Shown: positions 1,600 to 33,122 of the stretch, in pieces | How positions within the stretch are numbered: the first letter of the stretch is position 1 | How the letters are laid out: each line of letters opens with the position of its first letter | Assembly (NCBI GenBank): GCA_028720205.1 | Contig: JAQYLE010000018.1 | Span: 1-44,472 of the forward strand | DNA length: 44,472 bases | Direction: 5' to 3' | Source: Clostridia bacterium | GTDB taxonomy: Bacteria; Bacillota; Clostridia; Christensenellales; Borkfalkiaceae | The notes under the pieces: model-generated | Seen by the model: the letters and a program-made list of their open reading frames with translations, nothing else | Told to the model about the DNA's origin: nothing | Database searches by the model: none | Position numbers and translations under genes: made by a program

Positions 1600-4548
1600 T
1601 TATTCCGCGTCCGTCGTTTTCGTAAACATACGGTAGAACAGCGAGAACAAAACGATATTAAACAGATACGCTACGGGAATTACAACGTAAGAGAGCAGTT
1701 CGGGTACGGAACGCAGATCGGCTTTTAAGTATACGGCAACCATCGAGGCGAGCACGGTTACAATCACGAACAGCACGCAGGCCGTTAAAATGCAGCCGCT
1801 TTTTTTGCTTCTCCGCACGCGCGGTTTATAGCCGCCCGCATACAGTATGGTGCAGATTAAAAACGTAAGGAATCCGCCCGAAAAAGCAACGAAGGGATAT
1901 AACCCGTTTACGTTCAGTCTGTCTTTAAAAAAGAAAATCGAAAGACTTTCCGCAAGAACGATACAAAAGATAACGAACGCCGTTTTAAAAAGCGTTTTTC
2001 CCTTGTTGAAAAAGCCGTTCGCGCCGCGCGTCGCGTTTGCGTTCTGCGCGCCGTACGCAGAGGAAGCATAAAACGCATTTTCAGGTTTGTCTTGTCGGTT
2101 TTCCGGCGCTTTGCCGTTTTGCAAAAATTGCGCGCCGCCGCTTGTGCGGAGCCTGATTCCGTCCGCCTGCGCGCGTTCGTTCAACAGCGAAAAATCGTAA
2201 GCGCTTTGTTTGTTTTCGGCTGTAAAGGACTGCCGTTGCGCAACGTTCGCCTGCGCGTCGGAAGGACGGTTAGCCGCATAGGCGGAATCGTACGCGGGGG
2301 GAGCGCCCGTAAGAGAGGCGTATTCCGCGGAGATACGCGCGGCGTTGAATTGTCTGCGCGCCTCGTTCAAAGCCGTTTCTCTGCCTTCCAGTTCGTATTC
2401 CTTATCTTTCATCGCGGCTTCGCGGCGGGTAAGGTTAGCCGCCTGTTCGCGTACGGCGGCAATCGTCTGCGCCGTTTCTTCTTCCTGCTTCGTTTTTTCC
2501 GCTTCGTAGGTTTCTTTTTCTTTTTGCCACAGCGCCTTTTCGGTGAGGTACGATTGTTTTTCCTCGTCGAACAAGCGGCGCTCTTCCGCCCAGGCGGCGC
2601 GTTCGGCGTTAAATTTCTGTAAATCGCTGTTGAACGATTTCAGATCGGCGTTGTATGCGCCTATTTTATCGGCATAGTCGAATTGTTGCGAGGAGAATTC
2701 GCCGCGCCGCGCCATAAACGCCGACTGTTCGTTTTTCAACGTTTCTTCACGCCGCGAAAGTTCGTTTTCGCGCTCGTCCAGAGCGGATTGCGTATCGTGT
2801 ACTTCCTCCTGTTTTCTGCAAAGAAGCGCCTCTCTTCCCGCCAGCGATTCGCGCGTTTGCGCAATTTCTTCTTCGCGCTGAGCGAGGGCGGCTTCCCGTG
2901 CGGAAAATCCGGCGTTTTTTTCTTCGAGTTCTTTTTCTTTTATCGAAAAATCGTATTCGCGTTCGGTAAATTCGTATTTTTCCTTTTCAAACGCCGAACG
3001 GGTTTCTTCCCATTGCCGTTTCGCCTCGTCGAACGCGGCTTTATCCGCTTCGAATTTTTCGCGTTCTTCGTTTAAATCGCTTTCGGCGCGTTGCAGGGCG
3101 GCTTCCCGTTCTTCCACGTTCTGCGCGGTTTCCGCCACTTTGTTTTCGGAAGATTTCATCAGCGCGGTAAGATTTTGCACCGTTGCCTCGCGTTCGGCAA
3201 GTTCCGCTTCCTTTATTTGCAGTTCATGCTTTTCTTCTTCTATTTTGTTTAACGCCTCGGCGAGTTCCTGCCGCTTGGTTTCGGTTTCTTCTTCCGCTTT
3301 CGTCTGCGCTAAAATCGCGGAAGCGAGTTCGCTTTGCTTTTCCTGCAATTCGTTTTCTTTTTCGGCAAGTTCGGCTTTCGTAGCGTCCAGATCTTCCTGT
3401 AAACGGTTAATCTTCGCTTCTTTAACGAGTAATTCCGCGCGCGCGGAAGTCAGATTAACGTCCAGCCCGTTAATCGCCGCCTGTTTGTCGTTAATCTCTT
3501 GCCGTAAAGAAGAAATGCGATCGACAAGTTCGGCGTGTTCCGCGCCGAGTTTTTCCGATTCCGAACGCGCGGCTACGCTGTCGGCGCGGTTTGATTCCAG
3601 AGCGGATTCCGCTTCCGCAAGCCGCGCTTGCTTGTCGTTCAGTTCCGCGCGCGTCTGTTCGAGTTCTTCCGAGTTTTTTAAAAGTTCCGCGCGTTTTTCT
3701 TCCAGCGCCTCCCTGGCTTCGTCGAGCGAAGCGGAAAGGGCGGAGATTTTTTCCTCGCCGCCGTCGGCGGCAATTTTCAGTTCGGCGACGCGGCTTTGCA
3801 AACGCTGCGTTTCGCGGCTCTGCGCTTCCGTATCTTCGCGCAGCCTTTCGAGTTGCGCGCGATTGGCAAGCAGTTCGCTCTGTTGATTCGCTATCTCGCT
3901 TTCCTTGTCGGCAAGGGCGCTTTCCAATTGCGCGATTTTGTCCTTTAAATCCGCGTAATCCGATTTTTGCGAAGAAAGCGCGGAGGACTGTACGGAGAGC
4001 AAAGAGCGCTGGCGTTCCAGTTCGCTCTGCAATTTTTTCAGCGAATTTTTTTCTTCGGAAAGCGCCGCTTCGCGCGCGGAAAGATTGCGCCTGATATCTT
4101 CCAGTTCCTTTTGCTTTTCGGTGAGGAACGAAAAATCGAAGTGCTTGTCGCCGTCGGCAATCAGACTGTCGATAATCGTACGCGAATACTCCCATTCGGA
4201 AAGGGATTTTCGCACGAATTCTCTGCCTTCTTCCGTAAGGCGGAAATACTTCCGTCTGCCGCCGTTCGAATATTCGCCGTAATACGAGGCGACGTAATGC
4301 AGCGATTCCAGGCGTTTCAGCGCGCTGTAAAGCGTGGGTTGCTTAATGGAATACAATCCGCCCGTTTTATTTTCTATTTCGCTTATAATATCGTAGCCGT
4401 ATTTGTCGCCGTCGTATAAACTGCGTAAAATAATGGTATTGATATGCCCCCGGATCAGATCGGAACTGATCGACATTCCTTCTTCGCCGCCCGTAATCGT
4501 TTCGAAATCTTCGTTTTCATTTTCCGAAACGTCTTTGTAGTCAGCCAT
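1600..4548 (-). CDS. Membrane-anchored PadR-type regulator with ~600-residue coiled coil, 982 aa
   Basis: Residues about 25-125 form a PadR-type winged helix (ISSDLIRGHINTIILRSLYD, then QPTLYSALKRLE and GGRRKYFRLTEEG). Residues about 143-735 are an almost uninterrupted heptad-rich coiled coil made of Ala, Glu, Arg, Lys, Leu and Gln, with recurring AREAAL, LAEREA and ELEEKR segments. A low-complexity linker follows, then four hydrophobic helices at about 855-874, 884-904, 918-941 and 951-974. The Arg/Lys-rich loop KPRVRRSKKS lies between helices 2 and 3, which puts both termini in the cytoplasm by the positive-inside rule. The design is a DNA-binding head held on a long rod to the membrane. 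PadR proteins are normally 100-200 residues, so the rod and anchor are unusual. Upstream lie TATGTCTG repeats that probably serve autoregulation. Neither ligand nor targets are known. Confidence 0.85.
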   Translation of the reverse strand: MADYKDVSENENEDFETITGGEEGMSISSDLIRGHINTIILRSLYDGDKYGYDIISEIENKTGGLYSIKQPTLYSALKRLESLHYVASYYGEYSNGGRRKYFRLTEEGREFVRKSLSEWEYSRTIIDSLIADGDKHFDFSFLTEKQKELEDIRRNLSAREAALSEEKNSLKKLQSELERQRSLLSVQSSALSSQKSDYADLKDKIAQLESALADKESEIANQQSELLANRAQLERLREDTEAQSRETQRLQSRVAELKIAADGGEEKISALSASLDEAREALEEKRAELLKNSEELEQTRAELNDKQARLAEAESALESNRADSVAARSESEKLGAEHAELVDRISSLRQEINDKQAAINGLDVNLTSARAELLVKEAKINRLQEDLDATKAELAEKENELQEKQSELASAILAQTKAEEETETKRQELAEALNKIEEEKHELQIKEAELAEREATVQNLTALMKSSENKVAETAQNVEEREAALQRAESDLNEEREKFEADKAAFDEAKRQWEETRSAFEKEKYEFTEREYDFSIKEKELEEKNAGFSAREAALAQREEEIAQTRESLAGREALLCRKQEEVHDTQSALDERENELSRREETLKNEQSAFMARRGEFSSQQFDYADKIGAYNADLKSFNSDLQKFNAERAAWAEERRLFDEEKQSYLTEKALWQKEKETYEAEKTKQEEETAQTIAAVREQAANLTRREAAMKDKEYELEGRETALNEARRQFNAARISAEYASLTGAPPAYDSAYAANRPSDAQANVAQRQSFTAENKQSAYDFSLLNERAQADGIRLRTSGGAQFLQNGKAPENRQDKPENAFYASSAYGAQNANATRGANGFFNKGKTLFKTAFVIFCIVLAESLSIFFFKDRLNVNGLYPFVAFSGGFLTFLICTILYAGGYKPRVRRSKKSGCILTACVLFVIVTVLASMVAVYLKADLRSVPELLSYVVIPVAYLFNIVLFSLFYRMFTKTTDAE

Positions 4549-30659: not shown

Positions 30660-31532
30660 ATGAAAAAGTTTCTCACTTCTCTTTTAGCGGCGGCTATGGC
30701 AACAAGCGCGGCGGCGTTTACCGCTTGCAGTCAGTCGGAAAAAATCGATATAAGCAAAGCAAAAACGTTAGCCGATCTGGAAGGCGCGAAAATTACGGCG
30801 CAGGCAGGAACGTTTCACGAAACGGCGAGAAGCCAGATCAAGAACGTTCAGGGGCAGTTATACGATTCGTTCGACGATATGTATATTGCGCTTACTTCCG
30901 GGGCGGTAGACGGATATATCGCGGAAGAACCCACCGCGCTTTCCGTGTGCTATAAAAACAAAGACCTCGATTATATTCATCTGGTAAACAACGATACCGG
31001 GTTTACCGCTTCCGACGAAGATACCGCGATAGCCATCGGCAGCAAAAAGGGCAGCGGCTGGACGGAAAGAATCAATCCCGTTCTTGCGCAGATATCCACG
31101 CAGAACAGAATGACTCTGATGGAGCAGATCGTGAGAGCCAACGCCGACGAAACGATAGAATCGTTTGCGGTTTCCAATGCTGCGCCCGATAACACCACGG
31201 GTACGTTGAAGGTGGCGATGGAATGCGCATACGCTCCGTTCAACTGGACGCAGCGCACCGACGCGAACGGCGCCGTTCCCATCAGCAGCGAGGGTGCAGA
31301 AAATCTGTATGCCAACGGCTACGACGTGCAGATTGCAAAATACGTCGCCAACGCGCTGGGCTTACAACTGGAAATTTATGCGGCGGAATGGGATAGTCTG
31401 ATTACCGGCGTGGAAGCGGGTACGTACGATCTGATTATTGCGGGTATGTCGCCTACGGCGGAACGGCGCGCAGTCATCGATTTTACGGATATTTATTATT
31501 CTTCTAATCTTGTGGTAATTTATAAGAAATAA
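30660..31532 (+). CDS. Lysine-type ABC transporter solute-binding lipoprotein, apparently circularly permuted, 290 aa
   Basis: MKKFLTSLLAAAMATSAAAF with Cys23 is a lipoprotein signal. The mature part has both lobes of a family 3 amino-acid binding protein in swapped order. Residues 36-170 correspond to the segment that normally follows the hinge (TLADLEGAKITAQAGT, YDSFDDMYIALTSGAVDGYI, AEEPTAL, then EDTAIAIGSKKGSG). Residues 183-290 correspond to the normal N-terminus (TLKVAMECAYAPFNW, NGYDVQIAKYVANALGLQLE, EWDSLITGVEAGTYDLIIAG, then SPTAERR and DFTDIYYSS). The protein ends at VVIYKK, the strand where the hinge usually enters lobe two. The ligand residues S264, T266 and R269 are kept. Start ATG 30660, after AGGAGG. 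First gene behind the lysine riboswitch. Confidence 0.85.
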   Translation: MKKFLTSLLAAAMATSAAAFTACSQSEKIDISKAKTLADLEGAKITAQAGTFHETARSQIKNVQGQLYDSFDDMYIALTSGAVDGYIAEEPTALSVCYKNKDLDYIHLVNNDTGFTASDEDTAIAIGSKKGSGWTERINPVLAQISTQNRMTLMEQIVRANADETIESFAVSNAAPDNTTGTLKVAMECAYAPFNWTQRTDANGAVPISSEGAENLYANGYDVQIAKYVANALGLQLEIYAAEWDSLITGVEAGTYDLIIAGMSPTAERRAVIDFTDIYYSSNLVVIYKK

Positions 31533-32315: not shown

Positions 32316-33122
32316 GTGGAAAACGAAGAGACCAACGTGCAGAGCGTACCCGCGGAAAACGGCGGTGCGGACGTAACGCCCGCCGCGGCGGATTCCGCCG
32401 TGTTTCAGATAAAGAACATAGGCAAATCGTTCGGCGATCACGTGGTATTAAAAGATATTTCGTTTACCGTAAACCGCGGCGACGTAATTTCCGTCATCGG
32501 GCCTTCCGGTTCGGGCAAAAGCACGATGCTCCGCTGCATCAATATGCTGGAAGATCTTACGAGCGGCAGCATTTTATATCACGGCAAAGACGTTACGGAT
32601 AAATCGGTGAAACTTACGAATTACCGCGCCAAAGTGGGCATGGTGTTTCAATCGTTCAACCTGTTCAACAACATGACGGCGCTGCAAAACTGCGTAAAAC
32701 CGCAGACGGTGGTATTAAAGCGGAGCAAGGCGGAGGCGAAAAAAATAGCCGAGGAATACCTGAACAAGGTGGGTATGGGCGCGTTTATCAACGCCAAGCC
32801 TTCGCAACTTTCGGGCGGACAAAAACAGCGCGTGGCGATTGCGCGTACGCTTTCGATGAATCCGGAAGCGATATTATTCGACGAGCCTACTTCCGCGCTG
32901 GACCCGGAAATGGTGGGCGAAGTGCTGGAAGTAATGCGCGCGCTTGCCAAGTCGGGACTGACCATGATTGTGGTTACGCACGAAATGGGGTTTGCCCGCG
33001 ACGTATCCGACCGCGTGATTTTTATGGACGGCGGCGTAATCGTGGAAGAGGGAACGCCCGAAGAAATTTTCGGCGCGCCCAAAGTACAACGCACCAAAGA
33101 TTTCCTTGCACGCGTATTATAA
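32316..33122 (+). CDS. Amino-acid ABC transporter ATPase (GlnQ/HisP type), 268 aa
   Basis: After an unusual Ala/Glu/Pro-rich N-terminal extension of about 28 residues, the ATPase core begins ([20 protein letters not shown]). Walker A is GPSGSGKST, the Q-loop lies in [12 protein letters not shown], the signature is [15 protein letters not shown] and Walker B is [16 protein letters not shown], followed by the switch His in VVTHEMGFA. It starts at GTG 32316, three bases after the permease stop, with AGGAGG overlapping that stop. It powers the lysine-riboswitch transporter. Confidence 0.94.

Follow-up and report, generated by a model that had tools for sequence, protein, structure and literature searches.

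As a rule, natural circular permutations come to light only in comparisons of distant proteins, so that their mode of origin has been a matter of argument rather than observation. The duplication model of permutation and the intermediates that it predicts are established (PMC3320104), and permuted binding proteins are already known outside family 3. Tp0684 (MglB-2) of Treponema pallidum is a naturally permuted ABC transporter binding lipoprotein of type I that binds glucose, and a crystal structure together with binding assays demonstrated that it binds ligand and changes shape (PMC4990184). The glycine betaine-binding proteins OpuAC and ProX were found with CPSARST to be related by circular permutation, a relationship that also holds with molybdate-binding proteins and CysB (PMC2395249). 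The literature that we searched, whose coverage leaves most subscription papers and all preprints outside, describes no permuted family 3 binding protein, in agreement with an earlier note on this DNA that knew of no lysine-binding protein with exchanged lobes.

Here, we describe such a protein from the window (the whole stretch of DNA that was analysed, 44,472 nucleotides) of a gut bacterium. It resembles Tp0684 in being a natural permutation of an ABC binding lipoprotein, known in our case from sequence and a structural model. Unlike our protein, Tp0684 has a type I sugar-binding (cluster B) fold, is broken inside its N lobe with a fourth crossing added, and has a permuted part that is poorly conserved with normal-order relatives. 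OpuAC and ProX differ from our case by their sequence identity of less than 24% and a different ligand family. The tandem domains of GlnPQ (6h30) present the order of the permuted protein where lobe 2 of SBD1 leads through a linker into lobe 1 of SBD2, but each of them is a complete domain in normal order, and the pair is fused to a permease; the structure is a plausible model of a duplicated intermediate. Normal-order lysine-type family 3 proteins (L025 of Clostridium nigeriense and L079) share with the window protein homologous lobes, the binding signature, the lipoprotein anchor, permease and ATPase, and a lysine riboswitch, whereas in the window protein the lobe order is reversed, the former termini are bridged by a new linker, the anchor leads into lobe 2, and the chain would cross between the lobes once instead of twice. 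Because permuted binding proteins are known elsewhere, the novelty lies in the new family, the close comparison within one type of operon, the recurrence, and an event within a single genus.

Lobe order of the binding protein

The gene is an uninterrupted open reading frame of 290 amino acids on the forward strand, from an ATG at 30660 to the stop at 31532, and our analysis confirmed that it encodes a circularly permuted family 3 solute-binding lipoprotein broken at the hinge. The lipoprotein signal peptide (30660 to 30728), assigned by inspection, carries a Cys23 that is invariant in 20 permuted homologues. Lobe 2, normally C-terminal, comes first (amino acids 34 to 158; 30759 to 31133) and matches positions 1 to 125 of the lobe 2 profile at 172 bits, while lobe 1 (PF00497), normally N-terminal, comes last (amino acids 182 to 290; 31203 to 31529), matches positions 1 to 106 of the lobe 1 profile at 169 bits, and ends in the hinge strand VVIYKK. 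The gap that separates the two matches (amino acids 159 to 181; 31134 to 31202) is the new linker from the old C terminus to the old N terminus, which measures 32 to 36 residues in the lysine-type hinge-permuted members with shorter general profiles. Both lobe profiles were built from permuted and normal relatives; each matches the window protein once and at full length, and normal relatives reach similar scores in the order lobe 1 to lobe 2. The swapped order that the earlier note had read from the letters is thereby borne out, as is its placement of the break at the hinge.

Aligned separately, both halves are homologous to family 3, and the canonical path from lobe 1 to lobe 2 and back to lobe 1 is absent. 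The PF00497 match is confined to lobe 1 (amino acids 206 to 290, 74.9 bits against a cut-off of 26.4, E = 6.3e-21), and PDB relatives align as two pieces in exchanged order, with residues 219 to 289 of the protein corresponding to 63 to 133 of chain 4ymx and residues 37 to 129 to 141 to 231. A first half unrelated to lobe 2, which the earlier note had considered fatal to its reading, is ruled out by the lobe 2 profile and the PDB alignments. The protein is most similar to family 3 amino-acid-binding proteins, not to the type I sugar-binding proteins of cluster Bc (Tp0684-like), and the NCBIfam model TIGR01096 for Lys/Arg/Orn-binding proteins scores 94.9 bits, below its curated cut-off of 256.35. 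The rest of the genome holds only two further PF00497 proteins, both in normal order and on other contigs, and neither a frameshifted second copy nor the missing halves were found in it, so that the intact reading frame and the genome search rule out the hidden copy that the note had also asked about.

The ligand-binding signatures, which the note had described as intact, are equally conserved whether the lobes are permuted or in normal order (Y, N, GYD, GxS, T, and R in lobe 1; Q, T, and P in lobe 2), and the window protein has the Arg of GMSPTxxR, the aromatic site, and the lobe 2 Q and T. Of the columns that are conserved in normal lysine-type proteins, many are so in the permuted ones, too. 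The AlphaFold model (pLDDT, 90.2; pTM, 0.82) suggests that the protein folds into the usual two-lobed clamshell. Its top Foldseek match is the tandem structure 6h30, and a permuted relative aligned in one stretch across the SBD1-SBD2 junction, which is what a chain running from lobe 2 to lobe 1 should give. Foldseek comparisons with full-length normal proteins gave query-normalised TM values of 0.3 to 0.46, which, as the method depends on chain order, are expected for a permuted chain rather than proof of one.

Origin of the exchanged lobes

How such an order could arise is best seen in two lysine-type genes of one genus, the permuted L075, known from one contig, and the normal-order L079, which are 89% and 81% identical by lobe. 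In their DNA, the segment with riboswitch, leader, and signal peptide runs collinear in the two genes (L075 1109 to 1475 with L079 1158 to 1526), as does the permease (2382 to 3138 with 2374 to 3130), while two internal blocks are exchanged (L075 1498 to 1820 matches L079 1999 to 2321, and L075 1876 to 2302 matches L079 1555 to 1981). Ahead of lobe 1, L075 has the linker ESGKAKLYVG, which is similar to the lipoprotein spacer SGEKEKLYVG of the normal gene, and the AlphaFold model of L075 (pLDDT, 78.9; pTM, 0.71) has a lobe 2 strand and helix at its C terminus. These collinear flanks and exchanged blocks are the residue expected of a duplication, a deletion behind the signal peptide, and early termination.

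The sequence comparison thus supports an origin in which a normal gene would have been duplicated in tandem and in frame, the first copy would have lost lobe 1 while keeping its signal peptide, and the last copy would have lost lobe 2 by early termination; similar events would have recurred in related binding proteins at several positions of lobe 2. Tandem duplication with loss of the outer parts had been proposed in the earlier note, and the block pattern of L075 and L079 speaks for it, whereas a lysine-type tandem-domain intermediate was not found in scans of the family, order, class, phylum, and two genera. The relatives that the note had proposed to look for beside the same permease were likewise found in part: unpermuted genes stand in the same riboswitch-permease-ATPase operon, but the duplicated lysine-type fusion was not among them. 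Tandem fusions do occur in other amino-acid systems (L154 and L168).

Several further loci bear on duplication. L089 and L091 carry adjacent same-strand lysine-type genes in normal order, a duplication of the kind that the model needs. The 779-amino-acid frame of L154/L218 holds two permuted binding domains in tandem and a permease, and L159/L217 reads lobe 1, lobe 2, lobe 1, and permease before it is cut by the contig end, making it a candidate three-lobe intermediate.

Joining of two half-proteins of different origin is an accepted route to permutation (PMC3320104), and isolated lobes of ribose-binding protein can reassemble (PMC10601554). However, the identities of the two halves to normal-order relatives covary (Spearman 0.85), which argues that they have one source and rules out a chimera of two families; no split-lobe genes were met among the relatives, and L075 has the same operon position, leader, and signal peptide as L079, only the blocks being exchanged. 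We consider such fission and fusion improbable compared with duplication and truncation.

Operon and lysine link

The lysine role implied in the earlier note is backed by the surroundings of the gene. The operon leader is a lysine riboswitch aptamer (RF00168; 30366 to 30558, forward strand; cmscan 77.6 bits against a gathering score of 30, E = 1e-18), and the gene is followed on the same strand by an amino-acid ABC permease of the polar amino acid type (PF00528; 31548 to 32312), assigned from domain matches and the permease tree, and by a GlnQ-like amino-acid ABC transporter ATPase (32316 to 33122), assigned from domain matches, as is characteristic of a lysine-regulated amino-acid ABC importer. 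In other genomes, the riboswitch also lies upstream of normal-order lysine-type genes (L024, L025, L066, L087, and L105), and the tree of the permease, an independent gene, places permuted and normal-order lysine systems in one clade. With the riboswitch before both and closely related permeases behind them, the permuted protein occupies the place of the normal version.

Since lysine binding by the permuted protein is an inference and its lobe 2 has diverged from normal relatives more than lobe 1, it might have another role, such as that of a sensor or a receptor for another ligand. That it is the sole binding protein of a riboswitch-permease-ATPase operon, in the position of the normal version, makes this quite unlikely. 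We think it very likely that the window protein is the binding lipoprotein of a lysine-riboswitch-controlled amino-acid ABC importer, permuted at the hinge by tandem duplication and truncation. Lysine would bind between the lobes and the clamshell would close, the adjacent permease and ATPase would import the lysine handed over to them, and the riboswitch would shut the operon when lysine is plentiful.

Recurrence of permutation in Clostridia

The order lobe 2 to lobe 1 was found in 28 other loci (L056 to L064 and the 19 loci L004 to L022, the latter 52 to 72% identical to the window protein over the whole length). Together with the window, these 29 lysine-type genes share the hinge breakpoint. 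Scans at the family, order, class, and phylum level brought further termini to light. Across lysine and non-lysine systems, the termini fall at about four positions, one at the hinge and the others some 20, 45, and 85 residues beyond it. The hinge type (A) comprises the 29 lysine-type genes and a distant non-lysine set (L132 to L145, L149 to L151, and L153), of which L140, L149, L150, and L151 are fused to a permease; type A', with termini some 20 residues into lobe 2, comprises L146 to L148. Type B, with its termini some 45 residues beyond the end of lobe 1, is represented by the lysine-type L075 and the non-lysine L155, L158, and L165, and type C, about 85 residues on, by the permease-fused lysine-type L065 and the non-lysine L156. 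The single-domain permuted proteins contain the domain about once each.

Other loci were noted beside these. In the genus of the window, L227 (2026 to 2895, reverse strand) appears to be of type B, starting inside lobe 2 and ending with the start of lobe 2. Non-lysine type C proteins occur in several genera of the window's GTDB family (L211, L212, L214, L222 to L226, L228, and L229, where L228 and L229 cover the places of L212 and L214 in larger stretches and are not extra loci), with permease fusions in L211 and L212/L228. In L151 (2239 to 4500, reverse strand), a single frame joins a permuted binding domain, a permease, and the start of an ATPase, which is nearly a whole importer. When plasmids were searched for named carriers, a single candidate emerged, an 84% match at 30.8% identity in an Enterococcus faecalis record.

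Trees were built after sequences had been rotated back to a common order. The 29 permuted lysine genes fall into a single clade that is nested within the larger lysine clade with its 98 normal-order genes (SH-aLRT, 99), and a second tree with 14 of the 29 recovers it (99/99). Changes of arrangement number 7 on a tree of 88 representatives and 11 on one of 179 rows, counts that depend on tree and sampling and that leave out type C loci of the window's family. With groups named after the data had been seen and A' rows counted with A, AU tests reject a single origin of all A (P = 5e-5), all B (P = 2e-59), and all C (P = 7e-54), and reject one clade of lysine A, B, and C (P = 0.0013) and of non-lysine A and C (P = 0.005), while a common clade of lysine A and C passes the test (P = 0.31). 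In its main placements, the permease tree concurs, with lysine A among lysine systems, L075 beside L079, and non-lysine B beside L181. Permutation probably had four or more independent origins, a conservative four being lysine A (perhaps with C), lysine B, non-lysine A, and non-lysine B.

Parsimony cannot tell gains from reversals, and two normal-order proteins nested in the permuted non-lysine group (L163 and L166) could be reversals or reflect extra independent permutations. The permuted order might by the same token be ancestral in the lysine clade and the normal order derived, but the nesting of the permuted genes in a single clade and the normal order in which the chains of solved family 3 relatives align render this very doubtful. 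Nor is an assembly error or frameshift that conceals a normal gene a serious contender even though the window and most relatives come from draft or metagenome assemblies, as the permuted genes recur in frame at 28 other loci, each with its own signal peptide and stop, normal-order relatives stand in the same operon, the missing halves are found nowhere else in the genome, and close permuted pairs from loci other than the window are under purifying selection (dN/dS, 0.04 to 0.20).

Our findings make it likely that the amino-acid-binding proteins of these Clostridia are a hot spot of permutation. Their termini would have shifted several times, each time independently, to a small number of favoured sites in the first part of lobe 2, in several transport systems and, in one case, between species of a single genus, perhaps because a displaced lipid anchor and a freed hinge strand are neutral or useful. 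In type A, the chain would make a single crossing between the lobes rather than two, and the anchor would lead into lobe 2.

The within-genus case opens a rare protein rearrangement to study almost in the act. As permuted and normal proteins stand in the same type of operon and L075 and L079 are about 80 to 89% identical, duplication and truncation can be put to a direct test, as can the consequences for binding, closure, and transport. Annotation is affected as well, since permuted proteins are missed or matched only by half with curated models (TIGR01096, 94.9 versus 256 bits; PF00497, one lobe). Biosensors, moreover, are often built on binding proteins as scaffolds, and the family 3 proteins described here are naturally permuted ones.
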